NCBI RefSeq assembly: GCF_000337835.1
Contig: NZ_AOLM01000028.1
Coordinates: 62,001-126,000 of the forward strand
Source: Haloferax sulfurifontis ATCC BAA-897
GTDB lineage: Archaea > Halobacteriota > Halobacteria > Halobacteriales > Haloferacaceae
Length of the DNA: 64,000 bases
Direction: 5' to 3'
Below, piece after piece: positions 11,335 through 30,637 of this stretch. A program made the position numbers and the translations under genes. Below the pieces are notes generated by a model. That model was given only the letters and a program-made list of their open reading frames with translations. It did not search any database and was not told the origin of the DNA. Position 1 is the stretch's first letter. Each line of letters starts with the position of its first letter.

Positions 11335-12105
11335 CTACGAGTAGGTCGCGCGGATGCCGATGACCCGAGCGGCCTGCGTCACCATCTCGGGGACCTCCGT
11401 GTGGTACCACTCGCCTTTCATCCGGGTGGTTGGACCGGAGACGCTAATCGCGCCGAGGATGGTCTCGTCGTCGGAGAGAATCGGCGCGCCGACCGCTCGC
11501 ATCCCGGTGATGCGCTCTTCGTCGTTGAAGGCGTAGCCGCGCTCGCGAATCGTCGCCAACTCGGCTTCGAGGGCGTCGCGGTCGTCTATCGTCTTCGTCG
11601 TCAGCCGCGTCAGTTCGCCGTCGAGAATCTCCCTTCGGCGCTCCTCGTCGCAGAACGCGAGGTAGGACTTGCCGACCGACGTGGTGTGGAGGTCGACGGT
11701 CGTGCCGATGTGCGAGTCGGTCTGGGGGCCCTGTTCGGATTTCACCTGATAGATGTAGACGCCGCGGCCGTTCTCCTCGACCATCACTTGTCCGCGCTCG
11801 CCGACGGCCTCGACGAGGTCGTCCATCTCGCCGATGGAGGCGTGGTACAGCGCGTGTCGCGTCCGGGCGTGGTCGCCGAGGTCGAGGAACTTCAGGCCCA
11901 GCGCGTACTCGTCGCCCTGCCTGACGACGTAGCCGAGTTCCGCGAGCGTCTTGAGGTGGTTGTGGGCCGTGCTCTTCGAGATGCCGAGGTCGTTCGCTAT
12001 CTCCGACACCCCGCTCGCGTCGTGGTCCCTGATGTGTTCGACGATGCCGAACGACGTTTTCGTAGCGCCGATTGTTCCCGTCGCATCGTTCCCGTTCGTG
12101 TTCAT
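11335..12105 (-). CDS. IclR-family transcriptional regulator
   Basis: From the ATG at 12105 (an earlier in-frame TTG is less likely) this is a 256-residue IclR protein. The N-terminal winged helix (TSFGIVEHIRDHDASGVSEI, then LGISKSTAHNHLKTL) is followed by the effector-binding domain (about residues 85-250) with the family's TTVDLHTTSVGKSYLAF and RERGYAFNDEER motifs. IclR proteins usually bind a small organic acid or aromatic and control the adjacent catabolic operon. It sits at the downstream end of the leftward liv/MmgE-PrpD block, so it is the likely regulator of the 11-31 kb island. Confidence 0.93.
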   Translation of the reverse strand: MNTNGNDATGTIGATKTSFGIVEHIRDHDASGVSEIANDLGISKSTAHNHLKTLAELGYVVRQGDEYALGLKFLDLGDHARTRHALYHASIGEMDDLVEAVGERGQVMVEENGRGVYIYQVKSEQGPQTDSHIGTTVDLHTTSVGKSYLAFCDEERRREILDGELTRLTTKTIDDRDALEAELATIRERGYAFNDEERITGMRAVGAPILSDDETILGAISVSGPTTRMKGEWYHTEVPEMVTQAARVIGIRATYS

Positions 12106-12174
12106 AGTTAGCAATCAGGCAGTGAGGTAATAATTGTTGGCGTTTTGTTCGGGTAAGCCGAACGAGTGTTCGCC

Positions 12175-13548
12175 TCAGTACCGAGTCAGCGCGGCGACGG
12201 TCTCGCGGACCGGCCTCGAACCGACCGCCGAGAGCGCGTCGAGCGCCGCGTCCGCGGCGTCCTCGCCGAGACCGAACGCGAGCAGGTCGCGGTTGCGCGA
12301 GTCGAGGTCGGCCGCCGACAGCGGGTCGCGGTAGTCGCCGCGGGGGTACTCGCGCTCGCCGACGTAGCGGCTCCCGTCGCGGGCGGTCACCTCGACGCGC
12401 GCCCCCCAATCGTCGGGGAACGCCCGCTCGAACGCCTCGTCCGCGTGGAGGTGGACGCGCTCCGAGAGCCCCTGCACGGCCTCGTCGCCGAGCGCGTCGT
12501 CGAGGAAGTCGTCGAGTTCGACGCTCCCGTCTGCGACCCAGCGGGCGAGGACGTACGGCGTCGAGAACTTCGCCGCGGTGAGCGTCTCGGGTCGCGCGTG
12601 GCTCATGTCGACGCCGTTGCGGTAGGTGTACACGTCGATTCGGTCCACGTCGCCGGGCGCGAGGTCGTCCGCGCCGGCGTCTCGTAGGGCGTCGAGCGGG
12701 GCGTGGGTGTAGCGACACGACGGATACGGCTTCTGGTAGGCCTCGGAAATCCACCAGTCGTCGCCGAGCGAATCGAACAGGGCGTCGAACTCGCCGTCGC
12801 CGAGGAGCGTTTCGAACGGGTCGTAGACGGCCTCCATCGCCGCGGGCGACCCGCGGAGGCCGGCGGCGGTCAGCGTCGCGGCGCTCACGCCGGCCTGCGC
12901 GGAGAACCCGGCGGTGACGTTCCGCGACGGCGCGCCCTCTGCGAAGGGGTCGTGCATGGAGGCGACCGCGAGGTTCAGCGCGGTCCGGACCGTCTCGCGC
13001 ACCCCGTCGGGCGACTGTCCCGCGCAGACGGCGGCTGTCAGCGCCGGCCCGAGCGTCGTCCACGTCGAGTGCGGGTCGCGGACGAGCCACGGAATCGCCT
13101 CGTTCATCCGGGCCTTCATCGCGAAGATGGCGTACTCGAAGCGCGCGCACAGCTCGTAGGAGCGGACGCAGGCGTCTACGAACGTCTCGCCGTCCACGTC
13201 GTTGGCCTCGGCGACGCCGACCGCGCCCGCGACGACGCTCGCGCCGACGTGGCCGCCGCGGTTGTGGCCCTCCTCTATCTCCTGTGTTATCGCCGCCGTC
13301 GCGTTCAACAGCGCCGCCTGCGACGGGTCGACCCGGCGGTCGGTCCCGAGGACGGACGCCGGGCCGTCGGCCAGTTTCGCGTCGCGGAAGACGCCCGCGT
13401 GCTGTGGCGCGGCCGCCCCCGCGACGGTCGCCGCGAGCACGTCCGCGACGATTCGCGCCCCGTCGGCGCGCACGTCGTCGGGTATCTCGTCGGTCAGAAA
13501 GCCGTACACCTGTCGTTCCCAGTCTCTGACTGGCTCGTGTGAAATCAT
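12175..13548 (-). CDS. MmgE/PrpD family protein (first of two)
   Basis: The 457-residue protein has the all-helical N-terminal domain and C-terminal lid of the MmgE/PrpD superfamily, which includes 2-methylcitrate dehydratase, cis-aconitate decarboxylase and iminodisuccinate epimerase. Recognisable segments are QEIEEGHNRGGHVGASVV (family LDDGH.HPG region with active-site His), LNLAVASMHDPFAEG, and CRYTHAPLDALRDAG. The substrate is probably a branched di- or tricarboxylate, but the sequence does not tell which. Its ATG overlaps the stop of the upstream paralogue at 13545 by 4 bases (ATGA). Confidence 0.88.
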   Translation of the reverse strand: MISHEPVRDWERQVYGFLTDEIPDDVRADGARIVADVLAATVAGAAAPQHAGVFRDAKLADGPASVLGTDRRVDPSQAALLNATAAITQEIEEGHNRGGHVGASVVAGAVGVAEANDVDGETFVDACVRSYELCARFEYAIFAMKARMNEAIPWLVRDPHSTWTTLGPALTAAVCAGQSPDGVRETVRTALNLAVASMHDPFAEGAPSRNVTAGFSAQAGVSAATLTAAGLRGSPAAMEAVYDPFETLLGDGEFDALFDSLGDDWWISEAYQKPYPSCRYTHAPLDALRDAGADDLAPGDVDRIDVYTYRNGVDMSHARPETLTAAKFSTPYVLARWVADGSVELDDFLDDALGDEAVQGLSERVHLHADEAFERAFPDDWGARVEVTARDGSRYVGEREYPRGDYRDPLSAADLDSRNRDLLAFGLGEDAADAALDALSAVGSRPVRETVAALTRY

Positions 13549-14918
13549 GGTCTCAGTGGTCTCAGTGGTCTCGGTGAGTGTCGGGGGTGCTCAGGCCCGA
13601 GTGAGGGCGCAGAGCACGCGGGGGCGGCGGGTTCGGTCGCCGCGGTCCAGAGGCCGTCGACGCCGCCGTCGCCGATGACGGGCGCGACGAGTCGGTCGAA
13701 CTTCGCTCGGAGTTCCGATTCGGTGAACGGGTCGCGTTCGCCGCCGCGGGCGGCGCGCACCTCGCGGGCGTACCGCTCGCCGTCGCCCGTCTCGACGGTG
13801 ACGCGCGCGCCGCGCTCGTCGGGGGCGCGGGCCGCGAACTCCTCGGTGGCGACCACGTCCACGCGGCGGGCGAACCCGAGGGCGGTCTTCGTCAGCGCCT
13901 CGTCGGTGAACGCCTCCTTGCCGGTCTCGCCGGTCGTCAGCGCCGAGGCGACGGCGAAGGGAATCGAGAACTTCGCCTGCAGGGCGTTGGCGGGCGCGGG
14001 TTCCGACAGCGCCGCGGCCGCGGGGTACGTCTCGACGCTAACCGACTCGATGTCGGCCGCGTCGACGCCCGTCTCGTCGACGAGGAGCGCCACGGCGTCG
14101 AGGGCGGCGTGGGTGTAGCGGCAGGCCGCGTGGACCTTGAAGTAGCCGCGCTCGAGTTCCCAGCGCTCGCCGAGTTCGTCGGCGAGGGCGCTCCGGTCGG
14201 GGCCGTCCGCGGCCACGGGTTCGAGGTGTCGCGCCACGCCGTCGTCGAGGCCGGTGAACCCCGACTCGGCCTGGTCGACCGCGAGGAGGCCCGAGAGGTT
14301 ACTCATCCCCACGTAGCCGTTTCTGACGGTCGCGCCCTCGGTCGCCGCCTCGAACCGGGTGTGCTGGGCGTAGTTCGCCGCCATGCGCATCGCGTCGAGC
14401 GTCGTCTCGGCGTCGAGGCCGCGGAGTCGGGCGACGGCCGCGGCGGTCCCGACGCCGCCCCACACGCCGTGGGGGTGGAGGCCGTCCGCGAGCGGGACCA
14501 CCGTCTGGGCGGCGCGGACCGCCGCCTCGTAGCCGGCGACGAACGCCGTCAGGAACTCGTCGCCGCTCCGGTAGGCGGACTCGCCGTCCGCGAGGAGCGC
14601 GGGCAGGACGTGTATCGCGGGGTGGCCGGCCGCGAAGCGGTGGCCCTCGTCGAGTTCGAGGACGCTCCCGGCGGCCGCGTTGACGAACGCGGCGCGGTAC
14701 GCGGTGGTCCGCTCGCCAGCCGTCCCCATGACGGTCGATTCGCCGCCGTTCTCGTCGGCCCACCGGCGCGCCAGCGCGGCGACCGCGGGGTCCGACGCGC
14801 CGCCCAGCACCGCGCCGATGGTGTCGGCGACGACGAGGGACGCGCGCTCGACGACCGACGCGGGGAGGTCGGCCCGGTCGAGGTCGGCGACGAACGACGC
14901 GAGCGCTTCGTCGGTCAT
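13545..14918 (-). CDS. MmgE/PrpD family protein (second of two)
   Basis: The 457-residue paralogue of the next gene has LELDEGHRFAAGHPAIHVLP (active-site His region), a central MRMAANYAQHTRFEA helix and CRYTHAALDAVALL. It shares the MmgE/PrpD fold but is clearly diverged, so the pair may form a heterodimer or handle consecutive steps. The C-terminal 25 residues are an unusual Pro/Arg-rich extension (PLRPLRP at the end) over a DNA tandem of TCTCAGTGGT units. The last genes of the transporter operon precede it: the livF stop begins one base past its ATG at 14918. Confidence 0.87.
   Translation of the reverse strand: MTDEALASFVADLDRADLPASVVERASLVVADTIGAVLGGASDPAVAALARRWADENGGESTVMGTAGERTTAYRAAFVNAAAGSVLELDEGHRFAAGHPAIHVLPALLADGESAYRSGDEFLTAFVAGYEAAVRAAQTVVPLADGLHPHGVWGGVGTAAAVARLRGLDAETTLDAMRMAANYAQHTRFEAATEGATVRNGYVGMSNLSGLLAVDQAESGFTGLDDGVARHLEPVAADGPDRSALADELGERWELERGYFKVHAACRYTHAALDAVALLVDETGVDAADIESVSVETYPAAAALSEPAPANALQAKFSIPFAVASALTTGETGKEAFTDEALTKTALGFARRVDVVATEEFAARAPDERGARVTVETGDGERYAREVRAARGGERDPFTESELRAKFDRLVAPVIGDGGVDGLWTAATEPAAPACSAPSLGPEHPRHSPRPLRPLRP
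13551..13576. repeat. short tandem repeat in a gene end
   Basis: TCTCAGTGGT occurs at 13551-13560 and 13561-13570 and continues as a near copy (TCTCGG). It lies in the 3' end of the upstream MmgE/PrpD gene and codes for its repeated Arg-Pro-Leu tail. Replication slippage could have created or extended this tail. Confidence 0.6.
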
Positions 14919-14919
14919 C

Positions 14920-15624
14920 TCACACCCCGAGGTACGCCTCGACGACGCCCTCGTCTTCGAGGAGTTGGTCGCCGTCGGCGGTCATGCTGATGCGGCCGTT
15001 CTCCATGACGTAGCCCCGGTCGGCCAGCTTGAGCGTCTGTTGGACGTTCTGTTCGACCATGAGCACCGTCATGCCCTGCGCGTGGATGTCCTCGATGACG
15101 TCGAACACCTCTTGGACGAGGTGCGGCGCGAGCCCGATGGACGGCTCGTCGAGGATGAGCAGGTCGGGTTCGCCCATGAGTGCGCGGGCGAGCGTCAGCA
15201 TCTGCTGTTCCCCGCCGGACATGGTGCCGGCGCGCTGGTTCTTGCGCTCCGCGAGCCGGGGGAACAGCTCCAGCATCTCGCCGAGGTTCCCCTCGCGGTT
15301 CGCCTTCGCCTCCTCGGTCTGCGCGCCGAGAAGCAGGTTGTCGATGACGGTCATGTTGGTGAACAGGTCGCGGTTCTCCGGGACCTGCACGATGCCGCGC
15401 TCGACGATTTCGTGGGACGCCTTCGAGTGAATCGCCTCGTCGCGGTAGGTTATCTCGCCGTGACTCGGCGAGAGGATGCCGCAGATGGTGCGCATCGTCG
15501 TGGTCTTGCCCGCGCCGTTCGAGCCGATGAGCGCGACGATTTCGCCCTCGTCGACGCGCATGTCGACGCCGTGGAGCACCTCGATGTCGTCGTAGCCGGC
15601 GCGGACGCCGCGAAGTTCAAGCAT
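14920..15624 (-). CDS. livF: Liv-type ABC transporter ATP-binding protein (LivF)
   Basis: The 234-residue ABC ATPase has Walker A GSNGAGKTTT, the signature TMSGGEQQML and Walker B LLILDEPSIGLAP, plus the LivF-type ending (EDEGVVEAYLG). It is the second cytoplasmic ATPase of a branched-chain-amino-acid/amide (HAAT) importer and drives transport through LivH/LivM. ATG at 15624 lies within the last codons of livG (8-base overlap). Confidence 0.95.
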   Translation of the reverse strand: MLELRGVRAGYDDIEVLHGVDMRVDEGEIVALIGSNGAGKTTTMRTICGILSPSHGEITYRDEAIHSKASHEIVERGIVQVPENRDLFTNMTVIDNLLLGAQTEEAKANREGNLGEMLELFPRLAERKNQRAGTMSGGEQQMLTLARALMGEPDLLILDEPSIGLAPHLVQEVFDVIEDIHAQGMTVLMVEQNVQQTLKLADRGYVMENGRISMTADGDQLLEDEGVVEAYLGV

Positions 15625-16408
15625 CGACGTCGAACCCCCCGATGTAGGCCTCGATGACGCGGTCGTCTTCGACCACCGTCTCCGGCGCGCCGAAGGCGAT
15701 GCCCTTCCCCTGGTCCAGCACTTTCACGTAGTCCGAGATGTTCATGATGGCTTTCATGTCGTGTTCGATGATGAGCAGGCTCGTCCCGCGCTCGCGCAGT
15801 TGGCGGAACAGGTCGAGCATCTGCTTCGACTCCGACGGGGTGAGCCCCGCCATAATCTCGTCGAGAAGCAGGATTTCCGGGCGCGTCGAGACCGCGCGGG
15901 CGAGTTCGAGGCGCTTCTGTGCGCCCACGGTGAGTTCGCCCGCCTCCTCTTCGGCCTTGTCCGCGAGCCCGACGAATTCGAGGGTCTCCATGGCGATTTC
16001 GCGCGCCTCGCCCCGGCGGCGCGTGTGGATGTGCGCGCCGACCATCGCGTTCTCGACGACGGTCAGCTCCTCCAGCGGGCGCGTGATCTGGAACGTCCGC
16101 GCCAGCCCCGCCCGCGCGATTTTGTGCGCCGGGAGGCCGGAGATGACCTCGCCGTCGAGTCGGACGGTCCCGCTCGTCGGCGGGAACGCGCCGCTGATGC
16201 AGTTGAACAGCGTGGTCTTGCCCGCGCCGTTCGGCCCGATGAGGCCGATAATCTCGCCGCGGTTGACGGTCATGTCCACGTCGTCGAGCGCCTGCAGGCC
16301 GGAGAAGCGCTTGCCGACGCCCTCGACCGACAGAATCCGCTCGCCGTCGCGGTCGATGTCCGCGTCCGGGTCGTCGACGCTCTGTGCGGTCGTCTCGTCT
16401 GCCGACAT
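15617..16408 (-). CDS. livG: Liv-type ABC transporter ATP-binding protein (LivG)
   Basis: Starting at the ATG at 16408, this 263-residue ATPase has a 20-residue acidic lead, Walker A GPNGAGKTTLFNCISGAF, the Liv-specific ARTFQITRPLEELTVVENAM stretch, signature VGAQKRLELARA and Walker B LLLDEIMAGLTP. Frame remains open upstream, but composition there is that of a shadow of livM. TGATG overlap with the livM stop supports the ATG. It pairs with LivF. Confidence 0.95.
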   Translation of the reverse strand: MSADETTAQSVDDPDADIDRDGERILSVEGVGKRFSGLQALDDVDMTVNRGEIIGLIGPNGAGKTTLFNCISGAFPPTSGTVRLDGEVISGLPAHKIARAGLARTFQITRPLEELTVVENAMVGAHIHTRRRGEAREIAMETLEFVGLADKAEEEAGELTVGAQKRLELARAVSTRPEILLLDEIMAGLTPSESKQMLDLFRQLRERGTSLLIIEHDMKAIMNISDYVKVLDQGKGIAFGAPETVVEDDRVIEAYIGGFDVDA

Positions 16409-17484
16409 CACTCGCTCACCTCCTCGTCGCCGCGGACGCGGTTCCAGAGGGCGCGGGCCTGACTCGGCCAGCTCACCACGCCGCGCGGCGAGTAGATGAC
16501 GATGGCCACGAGGAACGCGCCGTAGATGATGCGGTCGAGGCCGTTGATGTCGGAGAACGTCGTCCGCGCGATTTCGCTGACCGGCGTGACGATGAACGAG
16601 CCGACGATGGGGCCCAGAAGCGTCCCCGGCCCCCCGACGACGGCGGGCAGGAGCAGTTCGACGTTCTTGAACAGCGCGAACACGGTGTCGGGGCGGATGG
16701 TGTTGAAGTACATCGACCAGTAGGCACCGCCGAGGGCGGTGAAGAAGGCGCTGACGGCGACGCCGATGAGCTTGTACCGGAAGCTCGGCACGCCGACGCT
16801 GGCGGCGGCCCGTTCGTCCTCGCGGATGGCGAAGAAGTACAGTCCGACCCACGAGTTCTTGATGACCCACGAGACGAGCGTCACGACCAGCAGGAAGCCG
16901 ACGATGAGGTAGTAGTACGGCAGGTCGCTCTGGAACTGGAAGGCGGCGAGGCCGTACTCAGCGCCGTAGTCGCGCGGGAACGGCTTGAAGTAGCCGTTGG
17001 CCCCGTGGAGTTCGGACATGTTGGTGACGACGAAGCGGAGCAGTTCCGCGAACGCCAGCGTCGCCAGCGCGAAGTAGTGGCCCTGTAAGTTGAAACGGAA
17101 CGAGAGCGCGCCGATGACGAGGCCGTACCCAGCCGCGAGCACGCCGCCGACGAGCATGCCAATCCACGGGTTCACCGCGAAGTCGACGACGAGCGCCTGC
17201 GTGGCGTACGCGCCGACGCCGAAGAACGCCGCGTGCCCGAACGAGAACTGCCCGGTGTAGCCGGACATGATGTTCCACGCCTGCGCCGTGTAGGCGTAGA
17301 TGACCGTGAGGATGAGCATCCGAAGGCTCAGCGTCGCCGCGAGTTCCATCCCGGCGACGTCGATTTCGATGAGCGTCGGGAGCGCCGCGAGCAGGCCGAA
17401 CAGCGCGACGCCCTTCACAAGCGGGGCGTACCGCCGGTCGTCGAACGTCCGGTAGCGGTCGCGGACGGACTCGATTGCGCTCAC
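16408..17484 (-). CDS. livM: Liv-type ABC transporter permease (LivM)
   Basis: The 358-residue integral membrane protein has about ten hydrophobic helices and the LivM motifs AWNIMSGYTGQFSFGHAAFF and LPAVVGGPGTLLGPIVGSFI. The first 20 residues are a charged cytoplasmic lead. The GTG start at 17484 overlaps the livH stop (GTGA). It forms the transport channel with LivH. Confidence 0.95.
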   Translation of the reverse strand: MSAIESVRDRYRTFDDRRYAPLVKGVALFGLLAALPTLIEIDVAGMELAATLSLRMLILTVIYAYTAQAWNIMSGYTGQFSFGHAAFFGVGAYATQALVVDFAVNPWIGMLVGGVLAAGYGLVIGALSFRFNLQGHYFALATLAFAELLRFVVTNMSELHGANGYFKPFPRDYGAEYGLAAFQFQSDLPYYYLIVGFLLVVTLVSWVIKNSWVGLYFFAIREDERAAASVGVPSFRYKLIGVAVSAFFTALGGAYWSMYFNTIRPDTVFALFKNVELLLPAVVGGPGTLLGPIVGSFIVTPVSEIARTTFSDINGLDRIIYGAFLVAIVIYSPRGVVSWPSQARALWNRVRGDEEVSE

Positions 17485-18446
17485 GCCTCAGCACCTCCGA
17501 AGAGGCCCTCGGGCTTGACGAGGAGCGTCCCGATGAAAAGCAGGAAGATGAGCACCTGCGCGGTGGTCCCGGGGAGGTAGTAGCCGCCGAACACCTGAAT
17601 CAGCCCGACGATGAGGCCGCCGACGAACGCGCCGGGGAACGAGCCGAGGCCGCCGAGGATGACGATGACGAAGGCGTTGATGAGGTACGTCTCGCCGGTG
17701 AAGGGGTCGAACCGCTGGAACAGCGCGATGGAGCCGCCGGCGACGCCGGCCAGCGCCGCGCCGATACCGAAGGTGAGGTAGTTGATGCGGCGGACGTTGA
17801 TGCCGACGTAGCGCGCGCCGTCGCGGTTGTCGGCGGTGCCGCGAATCTTCCGGCCGAGGTCGGTCCGGTTCAGGAACGCCCGCACGGCGAGCATCGTCCC
17901 GAGCGCGATGACGAGCGCGTAGAACTGCCCGAGCGGGATGAAGACGTCGCCGACCTGCACCGACCCGAGCGAGAGTTCGACCTGCTGGGGGTCGGGCGTG
18001 AACAGGATTTCGACGGCCGACTGGATGATGAAGAGAACGCCCAGCGTGGCGATGAGCTGGTTCTGCTGGGGTGCCTCGATGATGGGCTCGACCGTGAGAA
18101 TATGGACCACCACCCCGAGGGCGAACAGCACCGCGGCGGCGATGGGTATCCCGAGGAACGGGCTGATGCCGGCCGTCTCGGAGACCAACCACACCGAGTA
18201 CATCCCGACGACGAGGAAGATGCCGTGGGCGAAGTTGATGACGTCCATCACGCCGAATATCATCGTCAGCCCGAGCGCCGTCAGCGCGTAGACCCCCCCG
18301 AGCAGGAGGCCGAACGCGAGCAACTGTAGGAGGACGGGCTCCAGATTGGTGATGTCGGTCAGGAACTGTGCGAACGGGTCGATGAATCGGCCGAGGCCAC
18401 CGCCCTGTAGCGGCAGGGGCGCGACCGATGTGACTAGGTGTCCCAT
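17481..18446 (-). CDS. livH: Liv-type ABC transporter permease (LivH)
   Basis: The ATG at 18446 gives 321 residues with eight or so membrane segments and LivH motifs (GVYALTALGLTMIFGVMDVI near residue 55, NFAHG, and VILGGLGSFPGAFVGGLIVG). An in-frame TTG at 18476 is less plausible. LivH and LivM form the heterodimeric permease. The 94-base gap to the binding-protein gene upstream is short enough for one transcript. Confidence 0.95.
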   Translation of the reverse strand: MGHLVTSVAPLPLQGGGLGRFIDPFAQFLTDITNLEPVLLQLLAFGLLLGGVYALTALGLTMIFGVMDVINFAHGIFLVVGMYSVWLVSETAGISPFLGIPIAAAVLFALGVVVHILTVEPIIEAPQQNQLIATLGVLFIIQSAVEILFTPDPQQVELSLGSVQVGDVFIPLGQFYALVIALGTMLAVRAFLNRTDLGRKIRGTADNRDGARYVGINVRRINYLTFGIGAALAGVAGGSIALFQRFDPFTGETYLINAFVIVILGGLGSFPGAFVGGLIVGLIQVFGGYYLPGTTAQVLIFLLFIGTLLVKPEGLFGGAEA

Positions 18447-18540
18447 GCGGTTTCTACGCTCGGGAATTGTTGTCAACCCCCATAAAAGGTGGCTATCGTT
18501 CGAGACGGTTCGTTGACGTGACGGCGCGCGCGGGTAGCGG

Positions 18541-23074: not shown

Positions 23075-23140
23075 CATGACGCCGGCGAACCGTGCCGTAC
23101 TTTTATGCCGGATGCCACCGCATCTCAGGCGAAGCGAGTC

Positions 23141-23800
23141 ATGACAGACCGTATCTGGGAGGACCTGCTATCCGAACAGGATAAACAGGTCATCACGAAG
23201 GCTGGTTACGACAAGGAAGGCGCCTCGTCGTGGGAGTCCCGCGGCATGGGCGAGAACCCGATGGTTCTCGTCATCGACATGCAGCGGCTCATCGTCGGCG
23301 AGAACGTCCCCATCCTCGACGCCATCGAGGAGTACCGCACCGCGATGGGCGACATCGCGTGGGACGCCATCGAACACATCGACCCGTTCCTCGACTTCGC
23401 GCGGGAGCAGGGGCTTCCGGTGACGTACACGCGGGTCGTCCCGTCGAGCTACGACGACCCCGACCACCCCGACCTCGACATCGTCGACCCGGTCGCGCCC
23501 GAGGAGGGCGACACCGTCGTCGACAAGTCCTACGCGTCGGCGTTCTACGGGACCGACCTGCTCTCGCGGCTCGTCCGCGGGGGCCACGACTCGGTCATCA
23601 TCGTCGGCAACTCCACGAGCGGGTGCGTCCGCGCCACCGCGGTCGACGCCAAGCAGAACGGCCTCAGCGTCGTCCTGCCGCAGGAGTGCATCTTCGACCG
23701 CATCGAGGCGTCGCACAAAATCGGCCTCCTCGACCTGTGGATGAAGTACGCCGAGGTGCTGGAGACCGAGGCGGTCGAAGAGTGGGTCGAGACGCTATGA
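23141..23800 (+). CDS. isochorismatase-family amidohydrolase (N-carbamoylsarcosine/maleamate amidase-like)
   Basis: Translation from the ATG at 23141 gives 219 residues. The cysteine-hydrolase triad is visible: Asp46 (VLVIDMQRL), Lys129 (DKSYASAFYG) and Cys162 (GNSTSGCVRATAVDA). Relatives hydrolyse N-carbamoylsarcosine, ureidoacrylate, maleamate or nicotinamide, all linear amides. The gene overlaps the following hydantoinase by 4 bases (ATGA), suggesting the amidase acts directly on the ring-opened product. A TATA-like TTTTATG lies about 40 bases upstream. Confidence 0.9.
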   Translation: MTDRIWEDLLSEQDKQVITKAGYDKEGASSWESRGMGENPMVLVIDMQRLIVGENVPILDAIEEYRTAMGDIAWDAIEHIDPFLDFAREQGLPVTYTRVVPSSYDDPDHPDLDIVDPVAPEEGDTVVDKSYASAFYGTDLLSRLVRGGHDSVIIVGNSTSGCVRATAVDAKQNGLSVVLPQECIFDRIEASHKIGLLDLWMKYAEVLETEAVEEWVETL

Positions 23801-25203
23801 CCCACGACCACGACCTCGTCATCTCGAACGGCACCGTCGTCACGCCCGAACACGGCACCTTCGAGGCCGACGTCGCGGCCGACGGCGAGACCATCTCCGC
23901 CGTCGCCGCGCCCGGGACGCTCTCGGGCGAGACGGAAATCGACGCGACGGGCAAGCACGTGCTCCCGGGCGCAATCGACCCGCACACCCACCACGGTATC
24001 TACCGCGGACTGGAGGCGGACGCCGAGTCCGAGTCCAAGTCGGACCTCGTCGGCGGCGTGACCACCATCGGGAACTACTTCCGCCGGGCCGGGGCCTACG
24101 AGGAGATTATGCCGGGCTACTTCGACGAGGCTGAGCCGAACTACTACCACGATTACTTCTTCTCGCTCGGCCTGCTCTCGATGGAACACGTCGAGGAGAT
24201 TCCGACCATCATCGACGAGTTCGGCATCACGACGTTCAAGTGGTACATGAACTACAAGGACGCCGCCCGCGAGAAGTTCGGCGTCGACTGCGATATGCAC
24301 GACGACTTCGGCGATGCGTTCGTCCGGAAACTCGCCGAACAGGACGTGCCGACGACGCTCGGCTACCACTCCGAGAACGTCGAAATCACGAACGCGCTCG
24401 CCGGCGGCAACGTCTACGTCACCTCGGAGTCCGACGACACCGACGCCGACGCCGACGAGGGCTACGAGGTGATGGTCGAGGAGTTCCCCGGCTACGCCGA
24501 GACCCAGAGCATGGTCGCCGGGGCCGCGCTCGCCAAGGTCCACGGCTACGACGACCGCTTCTACGCGGTCCACATCTCCGCCGGGGGGACGGCCGACGAA
24601 CTCGCCGCACTCCACGACGCGGGCTACCGGGCGTGGGGCGAGACGTGTATCCACTATCTCGCGCTCACCACCGAGGAGTGCGACGAGCGCATGAAAGTCA
24701 ACCCGCCGGTCCGGTCGAAAGCCGACCAAGAGACGCTCTGGGAGCGCCTCGCCGACGGAACCATCTCGACTATCGGGACCGACCACTGCGCCAACCTCGC
24801 GGAGAACAAGTTCGGCGAGGGCATCCGCGACAGCCTGCTCGGCTTCCCCTCGACGCCCGTGATGCTCCCGCTCATCCTCTCGGAGGGCGTCAACGAGGGC
24901 CGCATCTCGCTGGAGCGCGCCGTCGAGGTGACGAGCACCAACGCGGCGAAGGCGTTCAATCTCTACCCCAAGAAGGGGACGGTCCGGGTCGGAAGCGACG
25001 CCGACCTCGCCGTCGTCGACCTCGACGAGACGAAGACGGTCACGCCGGAACTGTTACACAGCGTCAGCGGCTACTCCCCCTACGAGGGCCGAGAGGTCAC
25101 CGGCTGGCCGACTCAGACCGTCGTGAAGGGCGAACTCGCCTACGACGACGGCGAAATCGTCGGCACGAAAGGGCACGGAACCCACATCGACCGCCCGGTG
25201 TGA
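23797..25203 (+). CDS. dihydropyrimidinase/hydantoinase-type cyclic amidohydrolase
   Basis: The 468-residue amidohydrolase shows the D-hydantoinase metal site: DPHTHHG (His63, His65), a Lys148 in TTFKWYMNYK that would be carbamylated, GYHSENVEI, YAVHISAGG and IGTDHC (Asp). This binuclear zinc family opens dihydropyrimidines, hydantoins, allantoin or cyclic imides. Residues AGAL..VTSTNAAKAFNLYPKKG are the C-terminal family signature. Co-translation with an isochorismatase-fold amidase points to ring opening followed by amide hydrolysis. The exact ring cannot be read from sequence. Confidence 0.92.
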   Translation: MTHDHDLVISNGTVVTPEHGTFEADVAADGETISAVAAPGTLSGETEIDATGKHVLPGAIDPHTHHGIYRGLEADAESESKSDLVGGVTTIGNYFRRAGAYEEIMPGYFDEAEPNYYHDYFFSLGLLSMEHVEEIPTIIDEFGITTFKWYMNYKDAAREKFGVDCDMHDDFGDAFVRKLAEQDVPTTLGYHSENVEITNALAGGNVYVTSESDDTDADADEGYEVMVEEFPGYAETQSMVAGAALAKVHGYDDRFYAVHISAGGTADELAALHDAGYRAWGETCIHYLALTTEECDERMKVNPPVRSKADQETLWERLADGTISTIGTDHCANLAENKFGEGIRDSLLGFPSTPVMLPLILSEGVNEGRISLERAVEVTSTNAAKAFNLYPKKGTVRVGSDADLAVVDLDETKTVTPELLHSVSGYSPYEGREVTGWPTQTVVKGELAYDDGEIVGTKGHGTHIDRPV

Positions 25204-25345
25204 GCCGGCGGCGACCGAACCGAGCCACGAACGCGGACTGACCGGCCACGCGGAACCGGGCACACGTCCCGACGGGCACGCGGACGCGCACACGCATCAC
25301 CACACGACCACCACACGCGACACAGAACGAGAAGACACACACGAC
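25204..25345 (+). promoter_or_regulatory. CA-rich leader between hydantoinase and CoA-transferase genes
   Basis: This 142-base spacer is conspicuously poor in T and rich in CAC/ACACG units (for example around 25258-25345). It is the only sizeable gap in the rightward operon and may carry a processing site or unstructured translation leader. No TATA box is evident. Confidence 0.4.
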
Positions 25346-26551
25346 ATGACGAACGACACGAACGGACCACTCGACGGCCTCGTCGTCCTCGAAGCCGGGT
25401 CGATGATATCCGGCCCGACCGTCGGCCGCTTCCTGGCCGACTTCGGGGCGACGGTCATCAAAATCGAACACCCGGCGTTCGGCGACCACATCCGCCGCTT
25501 CGGTCCACAGAAAGACGGCGTCGGCCTCTGGCACAAGTACCTCTCGCGGAACAAGCAGTCTATCACCCTGAACATCTCCACCGACGAGGGCGCGGCGGTG
25601 TTCGAGGACCTCGTGGGCGAGGCCGACCTCCTCATCGAGAACTTCCGGCCCGGCACGCTCGAACGCTGGAACGTCGGCTGGGAGCGCCTCTCCGAGGTCA
25701 ACGACGACCTCGTGATGCTTCGGATGTCCGGCTTCGGTCAGACCGGCCCGTACGCCGAGCGCCCCGGCTTCGGGACGCTCGCGGAGGCGATGTCCGGCTT
25801 CGCCTACCTCAACGGCTTCCCCGACTCGCCTCCGTTGCTCCCGCCGACCGGCCTCGCCGACAACATCGCGGCGCTGTTTTCGACGTTCGCGGTGATGTTC
25901 GCGCTCTACCACCGCGACGTCCACGGCGGCGGCGGCCAGTACATCGACACGAGCCTCATCGAACCCATCTTCGGCCTGCTCGGCCCGCAACCGCTCCGCT
26001 ACGACCAACTCGGCGAAATCGAGTCGCGGTCGGGCAACCGCTCGACCTCGTCGGCCCCGCGGAATGTCTACCGGACGGGCGACGACCGCTGGGTCGCCAT
26101 CTCCGCGAGCGCCCAACCGCTCGCCGAGCGCACGTTCGACGCCATCGACCGCCCCGACCTGAAAGACGACCCGCGGTTCGAGACCAACGAGGACCGACTG
26201 GAACACGTCGACGAACTCGACGCCATCATCCAAGACTGGATGGACGACCACAGCCGCGAGGAGGTTCTCGACGCGTTCGAGGCGGCCGACGCGACGCTCG
26301 CGCCCGTCTACAACGTCGAGGACATCCTCAACGACGAGCACTACGCGGCGCGCGAGGCGTTCCTGACGGTCGACGACCCCGACCTCGGCGAGGCGGTCGT
26401 CCAGAACGCCTTCCCGAAGTTCTCGGAGACGCCGGGGCGGGTCGACCACCTCGGTCCGTCGCTCGGTGAACACAACGACGCGGTCTACCGCGACCGACTC
26501 GGCTACGACGAGTCGGTGCTTTCGGACCTCGAAGCGGAGGACGTGATATGA
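25346..26551 (+). CDS. family III (CaiB/BaiF) CoA-transferase
   Basis: The 401-residue protein begins with the family III opening (LDGLVVLEAGSMISGPTVGRF) and has FRPGTLERWNVGWE and SGFGQTGPYAERPGFG. The catalytic Asp is probably Asp172 in PPTGLADNIAAL. Members transfer CoA between carboxylates (for example succinyl-CoA:citramalate, mesaconate C1-C4, formyl-CoA:oxalate). Next to a lyase and an aconitase-type hydratase, it probably activates a hydroxy-dicarboxylate for cleavage. The stop overlaps the next ATG. Confidence 0.93.
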   Translation: MTNDTNGPLDGLVVLEAGSMISGPTVGRFLADFGATVIKIEHPAFGDHIRRFGPQKDGVGLWHKYLSRNKQSITLNISTDEGAAVFEDLVGEADLLIENFRPGTLERWNVGWERLSEVNDDLVMLRMSGFGQTGPYAERPGFGTLAEAMSGFAYLNGFPDSPPLLPPTGLADNIAALFSTFAVMFALYHRDVHGGGGQYIDTSLIEPIFGLLGPQPLRYDQLGEIESRSGNRSTSSAPRNVYRTGDDRWVAISASAQPLAERTFDAIDRPDLKDDPRFETNEDRLEHVDELDAIIQDWMDDHSREEVLDAFEAADATLAPVYNVEDILNDEHYAAREAFLTVDDPDLGEAVVQNAFPKFSETPGRVDHLGPSLGEHNDAVYRDRLGYDESVLSDLEAEDVI

Positions 26552-27507
26552 GCCTCCTCGACTCGCTTCCCGAGCGCGTCCACGTCGTCGAGATGCTCCC
26601 CCGCGACGGGTTCCAGCGCCTCGACGAGTTCGTCCCGACCGACGAGAAAGTCGAGATAATCGACGCCCTCTCGGACACCGGCGTCGACGAAATCGAACTC
26701 TCCTCTTTCACCCACCCGAAGGCCGTCCCGACCCTGCGGGACGCCGACGAGGTGGCGACGCGAATCACCCGCCGCGACGGCGTGACCTACCGGGCGCTCG
26801 TCCCCAACCTCCGGGGCATGGAGCGCGCCGTCGAGGCCGAGGTGGACAAAGTGAACGCGCTCGTCACGGTGAGCGAGACGTACACCGCGAAAAACCAGAA
26901 CCGCACCCGCGAGGAGGTGCTCGCGGAGATGGACGACATCGTCGACCTCGCCCACGACCACGGCATCGAGGTCGAAGCCGGGATGGGCACGAGCTTCTAC
27001 TGCCCCTACGAGGGCGCAATCGACCCGGCGGAGACCCTCGCGGTCGTCGACAGCGTCGTCGACTCCGGCGTCGACGAGGTGACGCTGGCGACGACGATGG
27101 GCCTCGCGAACCCGGTCGAAATCACGGAGCGGTTCACCGCCGCGTTCGAGGCCCACCCCGGCCTCGACATGGGCCTGCACCTCCACGACACGAACGGGAT
27201 GAGCCTCGCCAACACGCTGGCCGCGATGGCGGTCGGCGTCGACCGCTTCGACGCCTCGGTCTGCGGGCTCGGCGGCGGCGTCGTCCTCCCGGGCGACATG
27301 TCCGGCGTCGGCAACACGCCGACCGAGGACCTCGTCCAGATGCTCGAACGCATGGGAGTCGGCCACGGCGTCGACTTCGGCCGCATTGAGGCGGCCGCCC
27401 ACGACGTGTCCGACCGCTTGGGCCTCGGCCTGACGAGCCACGTCCTCGCGGGCGGCACCGTCGAGGGCGTCCTCGACACCGTCGCCGCCGACGGGGAGGA
27501 GGACTGA
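26548..27507 (+). CDS. HMG-CoA lyase-like DRE-TIM metallolyase with unusual active-site loop
   Basis: The 319-residue protein has the DRE-TIM hallmarks of the HMG-CoA lyase family: EMLPRDGFQ (Arg19, Asp20) and the metal-binding His pair in LHLHDTNG (His211, His213). The G-loop reads GLGGGVVLPGDMSGVGNTP, so the catalytic Cys that normally follows GLGG is Gly244. It may cleave a different acyl-CoA such as citramalyl- or dimethylmalyl-CoA, or use another acid/base. It is flanked by CoA-transferase and hydratase genes with 4-base overlap and 1-base gap respectively. Confidence 0.85.
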   Translation: MSLLDSLPERVHVVEMLPRDGFQRLDEFVPTDEKVEIIDALSDTGVDEIELSSFTHPKAVPTLRDADEVATRITRRDGVTYRALVPNLRGMERAVEAEVDKVNALVTVSETYTAKNQNRTREEVLAEMDDIVDLAHDHGIEVEAGMGTSFYCPYEGAIDPAETLAVVDSVVDSGVDEVTLATTMGLANPVEITERFTAAFEAHPGLDMGLHLHDTNGMSLANTLAAMAVGVDRFDASVCGLGGGVVLPGDMSGVGNTPTEDLVQMLERMGVGHGVDFGRIEAAAHDVSDRLGLGLTSHVLAGGTVEGVLDTVAADGEED

Positions 27508-27508
27508 G

Positions 27509-28822
27509 ATGTCCGGCAAGACCCTCGCGGAGAAACTGCTCTCGGAGAAATCGGGCACCGACGCCCGCGCCGGCGACTACGTCGAAGCCGACGTGGACGT
27601 GGCGATGGCCCACGACATCACCGGGCCGCTCGCGTTCCAGACGTTCGACGAGGTGACGGGCGACGACGGCGAGCTGTTCGCGCCCGACCGGACCGTCTTC
27701 ACCATCGACCACCACGCCCCCGCCGACGGGGTGCAGGCCGCGAACAACCACAACGCGGTCCGCGAGTTCGCGGCGGAACACGGCGCACACCAGTTCGACG
27801 TGGGCGACGGCATCTGCCACGCCGTGCTCGTCGAGGAGGGGTTCGTCGGCCCCGGCGACCTCGTCATCGGCGCGGACTCCCACTCGACGACCTACGGCGG
27901 CATCGGCGCGTTCGGGACCGGCGTCGGCTCGACCGACCTCGGGACCGCACTCGCCACGGGCGAACTCTGGTTCCGCGTCCCGAAGACGCTCCGCTTCGAG
28001 GTCGACGGCGACCTCCAGGACGGCGTCTACGCGAAGGACCTCATCCTGCGATTCATCGGCGACGTGGGCTTCGACGGCTGTACCTACATGGCCGCCGAGT
28101 ACGCCGGGAGCGCCGTCGAGTCGCTCCCGATCCACGAGCGCCTCGTCCTCTCGAACATGGCCATCGAGATGGGCGGCAAGGCCGGCCTCGTCGCGCCCGA
28201 CGAGCGGACCGAGTCGTACCTCGAACGCCAGACCGGGAACGAAATCGACCTCGGCGACGCGTTCGTCTCCGACGACGACGCCGACTACGAGGCGATTCAC
28301 ACGTACGACGCGGCCGCCCTCGCCCCGCAGGTCTCGAAGCCGTCGAACCCCGAGAACGCGGTCGACGTGACCGAGGTCGCGGGCACCGAAATCGACCAAC
28401 TGTTCGTCGGCACCTGCACGAACGGCCGGTACGAGGACATCAAAGTCGTCGCCGACATCCTCGACGGCGAGACCATCGCCCCGAACGTCCGGATGGTCGT
28501 CGTCCCCGCCTCGAAGTCCGTCTATCAGCACATGCTCGGGACGGGCGTCTTCCAGACGCTCACCGACGCCGGCGCGGTCATCCAGAGCGCCGGCTGTGGG
28601 CCCTGTGCGGGCTACCACCAGGGCGTCCTCGGCGACGGCGACGTCTGTCTCGCCACGGCGAACCGGAACTTCCCCGGCCGCGAGGGGTCGATGGAGTCGT
28701 CGGTCTACCTGTCGAGTCCGGCGACCGTCGGCGCGAGCGCGCTGTACGGCGAAATCACCGACCCCCGCGAGGTCGAGACGAACCGCTACGACGACACGGT
28801 GTTCGCGGAGGTGCTCCCATGA
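27509..28822 (+). CDS. aconitase/3-isopropylmalate dehydratase-family large subunit (LeuC-like)
   Basis: The 437-residue protein keeps the three [4Fe-4S] ligands: Cys303 (GTCTNGRYED), Cys363 and Cys366 (SAGCGPCAGYH). SHSTTYGGIGAFGTGVGST is the family core. The compact length matches the archaeal LeuC/HacA/DmdA type, which isomerise or hydrate isopropylmalate, homoaconitate, citraconate or 2,3-dimethylmaleate. No leucine-synthesis genes (leuA, leuB) are nearby, so a catabolic role is favoured. It ends in a 4-base overlap with the small subunit. Confidence 0.92.
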   Translation: MSGKTLAEKLLSEKSGTDARAGDYVEADVDVAMAHDITGPLAFQTFDEVTGDDGELFAPDRTVFTIDHHAPADGVQAANNHNAVREFAAEHGAHQFDVGDGICHAVLVEEGFVGPGDLVIGADSHSTTYGGIGAFGTGVGSTDLGTALATGELWFRVPKTLRFEVDGDLQDGVYAKDLILRFIGDVGFDGCTYMAAEYAGSAVESLPIHERLVLSNMAIEMGGKAGLVAPDERTESYLERQTGNEIDLGDAFVSDDDADYEAIHTYDAAALAPQVSKPSNPENAVDVTEVAGTEIDQLFVGTCTNGRYEDIKVVADILDGETIAPNVRMVVVPASKSVYQHMLGTGVFQTLTDAGAVIQSAGCGPCAGYHQGVLGDGDVCLATANRNFPGREGSMESSVYLSSPATVGASALYGEITDPREVETNRYDDTVFAEVLP

Positions 28823-29352
28823 CGGGAGCCGCCGACGGCACCGGCGACGGCCGCCCCGACCCGGCCGACCCCGGCCGCGCGTGGGTCTTCGGCGACAACG
28901 TCGACACCGACCAGATAACACCGTCGCGTTTCATCGTCTCGTCGGACCCCGACGAACTCGCCAGCCACGCCTTCGAGGACCTCAGACCCGAGTTCTCGGA
29001 GTCGGTCGAGACCGGCGACTTCGTCGTCGCCGGCGAGAACTTCGGGAGCGGGTCGTCGCGGGAGCACTCGCCGCTGTCGCTCGTCGGTGCGGGCGTCTCG
29101 GCGGTCGTCGCGCAGTCGTTCGCGCGCATCTTCTTCCGCAACGCCATCAACCTCGGCCTGCCGGTGCTCATCTGCCCCGGCGCGGACGCCATCGAGGACG
29201 GCGACGAGATTCACGTCGACCTCGACGCGGGCGTCGTGACGAACCACACGCGAGACGAGACGTACGAGGCGGAGGCGCTCCCCGAGTTCCTCCAGTCGCT
29301 CGTCGAACAGGGAGGGCTGAAAGCCTACACGAAGGCGAAACTCGACGGCTGA
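28819..29352 (+). CDS. aconitase/3-isopropylmalate dehydratase-family small subunit (LeuD-like)
   Basis: The 177-residue swivel domain has the family stretch GENFGSGSSREHSP, where many relatives have NFGCGSSREH (Cys replaced by Ser), and FGDNVDTDQITPSRF near the N terminus, the substrate-recognition loop. The first 20 residues are an Asp/Pro-rich extension. It forms the active hydratase with the large subunit encoded upstream. It closes the rightward operon. Confidence 0.9.
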   Translation: MTGAADGTGDGRPDPADPGRAWVFGDNVDTDQITPSRFIVSSDPDELASHAFEDLRPEFSESVETGDFVVAGENFGSGSSREHSPLSLVGAGVSAVVAQSFARIFFRNAINLGLPVLICPGADAIEDGDEIHVDLDAGVVTNHTRDETYEAEALPEFLQSLVEQGGLKAYTKAKLDG

Positions 29353-29449
29353 GCGGGCACTCGGCTCACGGCATACGGCTTGACGACTCGGTTGACGACC
29401 GCACAGAGGCACCCGCGAACGCCGTTCCGAGACGGCTGTTTTACTTTCC

Positions 29450-30637
29450 TCACCGCTTTCGCGCGTCCCAGTAGAGGAGTCCGGCCGCGACGACGAGACA
29501 GACCGCGAGCCCCGCGAACGCGGCGACGTAGCTCGCGTAGGTGGCGACGATGCCGACGTACGCCGGTCCCAACGCGTTCGCGCCGAGGAACAGCGCCCGC
29601 GCGCCCCCGAGGTCGGCCCCGCGGTCGGCGTCGGGCGCGTTGTCCATGATGATGGCGTCCGCGAGCGGGAACTCCGTCTTGTAGCCGGCCGCGAGCGCGA
29701 CGACGGAGACGTAGATGAGCGGGCGCGCCTCCACGGCCGAGAGGACGGCGAGCGCGCCGGCGGCCACGAGCATCCCGACGACGGCGATTGACTCGCGGCG
29801 GAACCGGTCGCTCAGGCCGCCGGCGACGGGCTTGATGGTGATGCCGACGGCGAAGACGATGGCGAACGTCGCGCTCGCCAACTGCTGGTCGAACCCCTTC
29901 GCCTCGATGAGGTAGGTCGGAAAGAAGTTGATGACGCCGCCGACCATGAAGTAGAACAGTCCGAACGCGAGGAGCGTCCGGCGCTGTTCCGCGCTGGCGA
30001 AGAGGCGACGGAGCGTCCCCGAGACGTGGAGTTCGGGCGACCCCACGGCGTAGCCTTCTCTCGACCAGAACGCGTAGAGGACGGTGAGCCCCGCGAGGAC
30101 GACGGCGACCGGGAGAAACGGCGTCCGCCACGTCGCGTAGGTCAACGCGAGGATGGCGAGCCCCGAGGAGACGAGGCCGCCGAGGTCGGTGCCGGCGGCG
30201 TAGAGGCCGAGCGCCCGGCCGCGGCGTTCGACGAACAGGTCAGAGAGGAGCGCCCGCGAGGGGATGGCGAACAGCCCCTTCCCGAGTCCCGTGATGACCG
30301 CCGCGGCGACGAAGCCCGCGAGGCCGCCGGCGAGGCCGAACGTGGCGAAGCCGAGGACGAGGATGCCCAGTCCGGGGACGATGAGCGTCGCCCGCGTCCA
30401 CCGGTCGGAGTACTCGCCGCCGGGGTACTGGGTGACGGCGTAGACGCCCTGAAACAGCGCCAGCGCGATGCCGGCGGTCGCCTCCGTTATCTGGAGTTCC
30501 TCGATGATAGTCGGCAACAAAGGCGACAAGAGAAATCGGCCCGTCTGGAGGACCGCCCACGCCAGCGACACCGTGACTAACATCCGACCCGGGTAGCCCG
30601 CAAGCAAACGCTCGTCGGATGTCGGCTGTTGGTTCAC
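29450..30637 (-). CDS. MFS transporter
   Basis: The 395-residue protein has about twelve hydrophobic helices and the MFS loop motif around GGEYSDRWTRATLI. The GTG at 30637 follows a GGAGG; it gives 18 residues before the first helix (LVTVSLAWAVLQTGRFLLSP), while an ATG at 30583 would start at the helix. It converges on the rightward catabolic operon. It may import the substrate or export an intermediate of the same pathway, but that link rests only on position. Confidence 0.88.
   Translation of the reverse strand: MNQQPTSDERLLAGYPGRMLVTVSLAWAVLQTGRFLLSPLLPTIIEELQITEATAGIALALFQGVYAVTQYPGGEYSDRWTRATLIVPGLGILVLGFATFGLAGGLAGFVAAAVITGLGKGLFAIPSRALLSDLFVERRGRALGLYAAGTDLGGLVSSGLAILALTYATWRTPFLPVAVVLAGLTVLYAFWSREGYAVGSPELHVSGTLRRLFASAEQRRTLLAFGLFYFMVGGVINFFPTYLIEAKGFDQQLASATFAIVFAVGITIKPVAGGLSDRFRRESIAVVGMLVAAGALAVLSAVEARPLIYVSVVALAAGYKTEFPLADAIIMDNAPDADRGADLGGARALFLGANALGPAYVGIVATYASYVAAFAGLAVCLVVAAGLLYWDARKR

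Follow-up and report, generated by a model that had tools for sequence, protein, structure and literature searches.

The gene content of a 64,000-nucleotide stretch of Haloferax sulfurifontis ATCC BAA-897 (contig NZ_AOLM01000028.1, positions 62,001 to 126,000; hereafter the window) raises the question of which compound is taken up and degraded by one of its gene islands. In this island a hydantoinase-type cyclic amidohydrolase (HYD) and an isochorismatase-fold amidase (ISO) are encoded together with a family III coenzyme A (CoA)-transferase (CoAT), an HMG-CoA-lyase-like protein (HMGL), a two-subunit hydratase (LeuCD), a flavoprotein (FAD), an LLM-class oxidoreductase (LLM), an NTF2-like protein (NTF2), two MmgE/PrpD proteins (MmgE1 and MmgE2), an IclR-family regulator and a Liv-type importer. 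An earlier note, made from the sequence alone, had proposed that a cyclic amide or imide is degraded here by ring opening, deamidation, hydration, activation and cleavage. Open reading frame (ORF) calls, family scans and annotated homologues placed all the gene families that it named where it had put them, in overlapping runs (Table 1), and its route is still the best-supported reading, as the general chemistry fits gene content, catalytic residues and co-occurrence, whereas the lyase has no catalytic cysteine of the HMG-CoA-lyase kind and the flavoprotein no arginines of the fumarate-reductase kind. The substrate can be narrowed to a five-membered ring, an imide being likelier and a hydantoin a serious rival. 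From the observed gene content, conservation, co-occurrence and catalytic residues we infer every substrate and the order of the steps, and we put at about one in two the probability that the island serves the catabolism of a five-membered cyclic imide with a branched four-carbon diacid skeleton, the candidate class being the alkyl- or carboxyalkyl-succinimides or -maleimides.

Conservation of the gene set in haloarchaea

Co-occurrence of the families in other haloarchaea, which the earlier note had put forward as a check, was examined by searching HYD, HMGL and LLM in 391 haloarchaeal genomes of the same class. HYD matches of 72-100% identity formed a group of 39 genomes from 17 genera and five families, a further group matched at 60-65%, and a third, at 34-39%, consisted of dihydropyrimidinase-like proteins. 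The distribution of HYD is patchy, since four listed genomes of the same genus were without it. HMGL was found in 40 and LLM in 37 genomes; HYD co-occurred with HMGL in 38 genomes (Fisher p ~3e-49) and with LLM in 36 (Fisher p 3e-46), relatedness being ignored in both values. In the sole HYD genome without HMGL (G366) the contig ends at the CoA-transferase gene, close to HYD.

Thirty-three loci were fetched: 29 of the 39 genomes contributed one locus each in which HYD is linked to ISO, and in the other four loci HYD is linked to urocanase. The fetched stretches were at most 20 kb long and some were limited by contig ends, so that the counts for importer and MmgE genes are lower bounds. At a threshold of at least 50% identity, the neighbours of HYD in the 29 loci were ISO (29), CoAT (28, one of them a 53% paralogue), HMGL, LeuC, LeuD and LLM (26 each), FAD and NTF2 (24 each), LivH and the substrate-binding protein (at least 13 each), LivM (at least 11), IclR (10), LivF and LivG (at least 9 each), MmgE1 (at least 9), MmgE2 (at least 3) and the MFS transporter (5). 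Gene order varies between families, the content being mostly kept: Haloferax-like loci read FAD, NTF2, LLM, ISO, HYD, CoAT, HMGL, LeuCD, and Natrinema-type loci FAD, ISO, HYD, CoAT, HMGL, LeuCD, MmgE, NTF2, LLM, while the type and position of importer, IclR and MmgE differ among loci. Natrinema versiforme carries the haloarchaeal set with an ICL/PEPM-type lyase preceding MmgE (282 bits, PrpB cut-off 354), and Halomarina has a second HYD/ISO pair with a CoAT and a CitE-type lyase (best family RipC, 153 bits, cut-off 375). The gene set is thus a real unit; far from never being found together elsewhere, such sets recur in haloarchaea and their themes in bacteria.

It is unlikely that two independent modules merely travel together, one hydrolysing for nitrogen (HYD, ISO, LLM, NTF2, FAD) and the other a branched-diacid operon (CoAT, HMGL, LeuCD). 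Such a separation would suit the distance between HMGL and the main HYD in two genomes (25.5 kb in G349 and 30.7 kb in G305), the CoAT-HMGL pairs of G087 and G185, where HYD of this group is missing, a Natrinema zhouii plasmid with CoAT-HMGL ~27 kb from ISO and LLM, and a Cupriavidus plasmid with CoAT-HMGL-LeuCD and a tripartite-type transporter gene, where no amidohydrolase occurs in the 15 kb shown. The Cupriavidus lyase, however, retains the catalytic cysteine, HMGL is present in 38 of the 39 HYD genomes, and in 26 of 29 loci CoAT-HMGL-LeuCD and ISO-HYD are neighbours, including families with rearranged order (in L043 the former runs in the opposite direction).

Two arrangements were seen besides. 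A plasmid of Halomarina sp. BND7 (L067, L087) holds three ISO/amidohydrolase pairs within ~15 kb, together with AtuA/DUF4387, a CitE-like lyase, an ICL/PEPM lyase, an acyl-CoA synthetase-type gene and a second LeuCD. In genome G266, a 63.5 kb contig (C7) bears inverted near-identical copies of HYD, HMGL and LLM at ~20.0 and 42.1 kb, either a palindromic duplication or an assembly effect.

Ring opener and amidase

Catalytic residues were counted in homologues within loci L033-L087. All six residues of the binuclear metal site of HYD (HxH, Lys, His, His, Asp) were intact in 42/42 homologues, and Asp58, Lys141, Cys174 and Arg199 of ISO were kept in 43/43, the arginine presumably binding a carboxylate. 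HYD reached none of the NCBIfam cut-offs shown, that of dihydropyrimidinase included; its best family was D-hydantoinase (TIGR02033, 250.5 bits, equivalog cut-off 393), and the ErtD models NF058538 and NF058539 gave 171 and 163 bits (cut-offs 600 and 650). Searched as a single sequence, ISO was nearest to the solved structures 4l07 (2e-20), N-carbamoylsarcosine amidohydrolase 26st (1.1e-19) and 3ot4 (2.5e-19), of which 4l07 and 3ot4/3uao are, we assume, maleamate amidases. In both maleamate and N-carbamoylsarcosine the carboxylate and the amide carbon are bridged by two atoms, as would be expected for the product of opening a five-membered ring.

The LLM, dihydropyrimidinase-like and isochorismatase-like proteins together recall RutA/RutB plus dihydropyrimidinase. 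A Rut- or Pyd-type pyrimidine pathway is nevertheless extremely unlikely, as ISO scored 29 bits with RutB (NCBIfam cut-off 378), LLM matched F420 families and HYD stayed under the dihydropyrimidinase cut-off.

In the urocanase-linked loci (L056-L059) HYD is ~60% identical to that of the window and ISO is absent within the stretch. A HYD tree separated urocanase-linked (6 rows) from ISO-linked proteins (16 rows) with moderate support (89/90 and 88/86). Since neither ISO nor the CoA half occurs in the stretches read, the urocanase-linked HYDs were rejected as part of this pathway. Plasmids of Haloarcula halophila (L069, 4969-16103) and Halomicrococcus (L070, 5677-14611) likewise have a HYD paralogue of ~60% identity next to a urocanase-like gene, and all these loci carry an aromatic amino acid ammonia-lyase and a D-aminoacylase. 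The urocanase-like gene of L069 scored above the HutU cut-off and under both thiourocanate-hydratase cut-offs, and L070 has an MTTB-family trimethylamine methyltransferase near the HYD paralogue. Loci of the L069/L070 type are candidates for haloarchaeal use of ergothioneine or a similar histidine betaine.

CoA-dependent half and MmgE/PrpD proteins

CoAT reached none of the seven NCBIfam families listed, and with the named types (mesaconate, glutarate, oxalate, carnitine) it scored at most 216 bits against cut-offs of 413-750. HMGL, in agreement with the earlier description as HMG-CoA-lyase-like, passed the family score NF004283; yet the GLGGC loop of three solved lyases, whose cysteine we take to be catalytic in HMG-CoA lyases, has become GLGGG (32) or GVGGG (3) in 35/35 homologues. 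With glycine in place of the catalytic cysteine, HMGL is therefore no standard HMG-CoA lyase; three bacterial relatives keep the cysteine. Other HMGL-like and LeuC-like places in the genome share only 29-33% and 34-37% identity, respectively, with the proteins of the island. The LeuC-like subunit passed three subfamily cut-offs and stayed under the equivalog cut-off of 3-isopropylmalate dehydratase (TIGR02083, 440 bits, cut-off 611); it is probably not the housekeeping subunit.

PF03972 matched twice in the 3.8 Mb genome, in both cases the MmgE/PrpD genes of the island. The solved relatives of MmgE2 are iminodisuccinate epimerase (4.5e-28) and the Bacillus subtilis IRG1 homologue (1.4e-26). 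The substrates of characterised MmgE/PrpD enzymes are substituted 1,4-dicarboxylates (PMC12290011). These two genes had no role in the route first proposed; they would now be placed at a branched 1,4-dicarboxylate step, with MmgE1 as a putative isomerase or dehydratase of such a compound.

Flavoprotein, LLM and NTF2-like protein

The flavoprotein aligned with flavocytochrome c, whose Arg402 and Arg544, presumably the catalytic and the carboxylate-binding arginine of the fumarate reductase, correspond to Tyr304 and Tyr452 of the island protein. Both tyrosines were present in 30/30 homologues, bacterial ones too; the best-matching solved chain, itself with tyrosine at 402, is by our assumption a mutant. 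With tyrosine at both arginine places, the protein is probably not a fumarate reductase, and it may act on the ring or the half-amide as a putative dehydrogenase. LLM is nearest to F420-dependent methylene-tetrahydromethanopterin (H4MPT) reductase among solved structures (1.1e-43) and stayed under the cut-offs of the NCBIfam F420 families; by its nearest relatives it would be of the F420 type. A model of NTF2 (pLDDT 81.3, from four sequences) matched best the solved 4-OT/SnoaL fusion 9mua (Foldseek E 6.1e-10, TM 0.75 by query). In a bacterial locus (L147, 2927-3475) an N-terminal tautomerase domain is fused to an NTF2-like protein.

Relatives in bacteria

A contig profile search, for which the ISO profile had a bacterial sequence at its head, gave at least 594 stretches, at least 588 of them coding for a relative; the criterion here was loose (tblastn E 1e-3) and may admit other isochorismatase-fold proteins. 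Neighbours were counted at the best 80 of these, which share 61-77% identity with the head sequence and whose titles are bacterial, mostly from Proteobacteria; the test for neighbours was tblastn E 1e-8 with 35% coverage, 36 pieces were shorter than 20 kb, and part of the matches are weak and possibly other family members. Near ISO were found an amidohydrolase (62), FAD (35), an ICL/PEPM-type lyase (34), a CobW GTPase (34), MmgE (31 and 27 with two references), Liv components (30-35), TctC (28), a PuuE-like gene (20), TRAP (16), AcnA (3) and NTF2 (3). Bacterial ISO loci thus keep the same logic with other parts, namely the ICL/PEPM-type lyase, AcnA and PuuE-like proteins. On named plasmids the genes read IclR, Liv, MmgE, FAD, MmgE, GTPase, amidohydrolase, ISO in Variovorax SRS16, lyase, ISO, Liv, MmgE, FAD, MmgE, amidohydrolase in Methylobacterium nodulans, and lyase, AcnA, NTF2, amidohydrolase, ISO in Antarctobacter, where LLM follows 5 kb further; plasmids of Shinella and Hydrogenophaga follow this pattern. 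Compared with Variovorax or Methylobacterium, FAD of the window is 42-46% and ISO 35-37% identical.

The PuuE-like gene occurred in 10/18 of the best 80 loci without HYD versus 10/62 with it (three of the latter at 27-35% identity only). PuuE-like proteins belong to the polysaccharide-deacetylase family, as presumably does the fungal protein HxnM. HxnM is a cyclic imide hydrolase, an amide hydrolase acting next, and among characterised proteins PuuE is the one most closely related to the nearest structural homologue of HxnM (PMC9304392). The PuuE-like proteins were not assigned as plain allantoinases, two of them reaching 113.6 and 128.2 bits where the cut-off is 424.6.

It is tentatively conceivable that haloarchaea and Proteobacteria share one widespread and so far undescribed pathway that degrades alkylated cyclic imides, such as the substituted maleimides from tetrapyrrole oxidation. 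Its shared core would be ISO, the Tyr-type flavoprotein and MmgE/PrpD, with interchangeable ring openers (two amidohydrolase lineages or PuuE-like proteins) and interchangeable lyases (Cys-less HMGL-like, CitE-like or ICL/PEPM-like).

Further variants were noted at bacterial loci. In L154 and L128 an Amdase-family protein is encoded directly beside ISO, and a PuuE-like gene is adjacent or, in L128, ~3 kb away; the best NCBIfam family of the Amdase-family protein is EutA, far under the cut-off. The Amdase family is, to our understanding, that of maleate isomerases, with other activities too, and a protein of this family next to ISO would suit maleate isomerisation. Downstream in L154 (8976-14304) and L128 lie an HpaB-type monooxygenase and a flavin reductase, family-scanned in L154 only. 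A Variovorax PBL-E5 plasmid (L086, 803-11362) bears F420 biosynthesis genes, LLM, a carbon-nitrogen hydrolase, an amidohydrolase and a GTP-binding protein, possibly another F420-linked ring-opening cluster.

Proposed pathway: imide or hydantoin

In the proposed pathway the Liv importer would take up the cyclic imide, whose oxidation or tautomeric state the flavoprotein and the LLM/NTF2 pair may tune. HYD would then hydrolyse the ring to a half-amide, from which ISO would remove ammonia to leave a branched 1,4-dicarboxylate. The MmgE/PrpD proteins would isomerise or dehydrate this compound, LeuCD would add water to the unsaturated diacid to yield an alkylmalate, the family III transferase would convert the alkylmalate to its CoA ester, and the Cys-less HMGL-type lyase would cleave the ester to an acyl-CoA and a 2-oxo acid.

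The serious rival to this scheme, which we nonetheless regard as doubtful, is a hydantoin route, in which ring opening by HYD would turn a hydantoin bearing an acidic side chain at position 5 into an N-carbamoyl amino acid, ISO would hydrolyse the carbamoyl group, and the amino acid would be deaminated elsewhere before entering the diacid branch. A deamidated imide would be directly a dicarboxylate, and compounds of this class are what the families of LeuCD, CoA-transferase, lyase and MmgE/PrpD act on, whereas the hydantoin route would lead to an amino acid that must then be deaminated. From 148 listed ORFs near ISO, filters for length, distance and composition left 106 unlabelled ones; among the 25 commonest of their 114 Pfam families none was amino-acid-deaminating. 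An imide is therefore likelier than a hydantoin on three grounds: characterised MmgE/PrpD enzymes act on 1,4-dicarboxylates, the commonest ISO neighbours include no deaminating family, and a PuuE-like protein, with the fold of a known cyclic imidase and also of allantoinase, replaces HYD in some bacteria. The neighbours are, moreover, enzymes of the diacid type, and the urocanase-linked stretches read are without ISO.

Besides the distant HMGL genes of G349 and G305, several observations weigh against the imide pathway, and some of them favour a hydantoin. The best NCBIfam family of HYD is D-hydantoinase; its nearest relatives adjoin urocanase-like and ammonia-lyase genes and may open hydantoin-propionate; and the ISO profile ranks N-carbamoylsarcosine amidohydrolase 26st (5.1e-42) over 3ot4 (1.4e-37) and 4l07 (4.4e-37). 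Two neighbour ORFs matched Asp/Glu/hydantoin racemases, and the family survey covered 25 of 114 families. PuuE is an allantoinase, so that its replacement of HYD fits a hydantoin as well. The flavoprotein is without the dicarboxylate-binding arginines, and at the best 80 bacterial ISO loci CoAT (5), LeuC (3) and LeuD (3) are rare. The bacterial HYDs lie far from the haloarchaeal ones in the tree, on long branches of unsure placement; the ring opener was therefore probably recruited more than once.

The conserved catabolic unit, with a logic common to haloarchaea and many bacteria, points to a common environmental nitrogen compound not yet tied to genes. The set is small and assayable, so that the substrate question can be tested directly, and an answer would give activities to poorly characterised families: MmgE/PrpD, the Cys-less HMGL-like lyases, the Tyr-type flavocytochrome-c relatives and the SnoaL/F420-LLM pair.

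Relation to known pathways

An imidase/half-amidase route exists in bacteria. The maleamate amidases NicF and Ami (solved as 3ot4/3uao and 4l07) belong to the aerobic nicotinate and nicotine pathways, where maleamate originates from 2,5-dihydroxypyridine; they resemble ISO in fold and catalytic residues, sequence similarity being modest. The anaerobic nicotinate pathway of Eubacterium barkeri, with enamidase, DmdAB and dimethylmalate lyase, likewise combines an amidohydrolase, a LeuCD-type hydratase and a lyase acting on a branched diacid, but is not known to include a half-amidase, a CoA-transferase or an HMGL-type lyase; its ICL/PEPM-type lyase has counterparts in the Natrinema, Halomarina and bacterial loci described here. 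ErtD, the hydantoin-5-propionate amidohydrolase of ergothioneine use, shares the amidohydrolase superfamily with HYD and differs in its neighbours.

In nicotinate degradation by Aspergillus nidulans, HxnM converts a cyclic imide to a half-amide and the amide hydrolase HxnN yields the acid, as proposed for the island; the substrate is, however, a six-membered hydroxypiperidinedione, the fold of HxnM is other than that of HYD, and the sections at hand describe no hydratase, CoA-transferase and lyase set (PMC9304392). The Ict-Ich-Ccl-Mcd-Msi cluster for itaconate and methylsuccinate, which turns a branched C5 diacid into acetyl-CoA and pyruvate, shares a CoA-transferase, a C-C lyase and an MmgE/PrpD isomerase with the island, but hydrates at the CoA level and uses a citramalyl-CoA lyase rather than an HMGL-type one, and the available text names no ring-opening or amidase genes (PMC12290011). 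Cyclic imide opening followed by amide hydrolysis (PMC9304392) and diacid cleavage via CoA esters (PMC12290011) are already known. No description of the present gene combination as a pathway was found in one open-access library, most subscription papers lying outside this scope.

A nicotinate- or isonicotinate-like pyridine pathway, in which LLM/NTF2 would act on a hydroxypyridine and HYD would open a six-membered imide or lactam, is very unlikely. Known nicotinate routes contain a 'polyketide cyclase' and omega-amidases (PMC9304392), and SnoaL is a polyketide-cyclase-type fold; yet no pyridine hydroxylase occurred among the annotated neighbours or the 25 commonest of the 114 Pfam families, and the nearest kin of ISO act on products spaced as from a five-membered ring.

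Organization of the island

ORF coordinates were taken with refined start sites and families were assigned by Pfam and NCBIfam scans, except that the Liv genes, the binding protein and the MFS gene were named from annotated Haloferax alexandrinus homologues (Table 1). Eight genes form a minus-strand run (12175 to 21459) and eight a plus-strand run (21693 to 29352), with 4-base overlaps at NTF2/LLM, ISO/HYD, CoAT/HMGL, LeuC/LeuD, LivH/LivM and MmgE2/MmgE1.

Table 1. Genes of the island, with positions in the window.
Feature	Position	Strand	Basis of assignment
IclR-family regulator	11335..12105	-	Pfam IclR_C 2.4e-37; under cut-off of 13/13 NCBIfam families listed
MmgE/PrpD protein 1 (MmgE1)	12175..13548	-	Pfam PF03972/PF19305 above cut-off
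MmgE/PrpD protein 2 (MmgE2)	13545..14918	-	Both Pfam domains above cut-off
Liv-type ATP-binding cassette (ABC) importer	14920..18446	-	Annotated homologues in H. alexandrinus
LivF	14920-15624	-	
LivG	15617-16408	-	
LivM	16408-17484	-	
LivH	17481-18446	-	
Importer substrate-binding protein	18541..19863	-	Annotated homologue in H. alexandrinus
FAD_binding_2 flavoprotein, flavocytochrome c relative (FAD)	20026..21459	-	Pfam and alignment
SnoaL/NTF2-like protein (NTF2)	21693..22100	+	Pfam SnoaL_2
LLM-class oxidoreductase (LLM)	22097..23074	+	Pfam Bac_luciferase
Isochorismatase-fold amidase (ISO)	23105..23800	+	Pfam
Hydantoinase-type cyclic amidohydrolase (HYD)	23797..25203	+	Family scans, metal-site residues
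Family III CoA-transferase (CoAT)	25346..26551	+	Pfam 3.2e-115, 385.6 bits
HMGL-like DRE-TIM lyase (HMGL)	26548..27507	+	NF004283 281.9 bits, cut-off 246
LeuC/HacA-type hydratase large subunit	27509..28822	+	NF001614 551 bits, cut-off 385
LeuD/DmdB-type hydratase small subunit	28819..29352	+	TIGR02087 191 bits, cut-off 109
MFS transporter, doubtful unit member	29450..30721	-	Annotated MFS homologue in H. alexandrinus

The H. alexandrinus annotation shows this gene order on a 297 kb plasmid, with a hut operon after it, and the closest HYD matches among plasmid records are from Haloferax (97.6-99.1%). The adjacent hut operon was rejected as a member of the unit, HutU being found in 1/29 loci (of at most 20 kb each). 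At the 3' end of MmgE2 (13545-13640) small indels relative to the H. alexandrinus copy alter the last residues and bring about the overlap with MmgE1.

A promoter and terminator scan gave consensus matches only, such consensus being uninformative for an archaeon. A 14-base near-repeat was seen in two intergenic stretches, and the pattern derived from it matched the window twice (chance mean 0.08); its 7-base core was not generally present in 15 related loci, and no shared regulator site is claimed. Upstream of the MFS gene, positions 30722-30952 are AT-rich and contain repeated ACAATTTTTACAA-like units.

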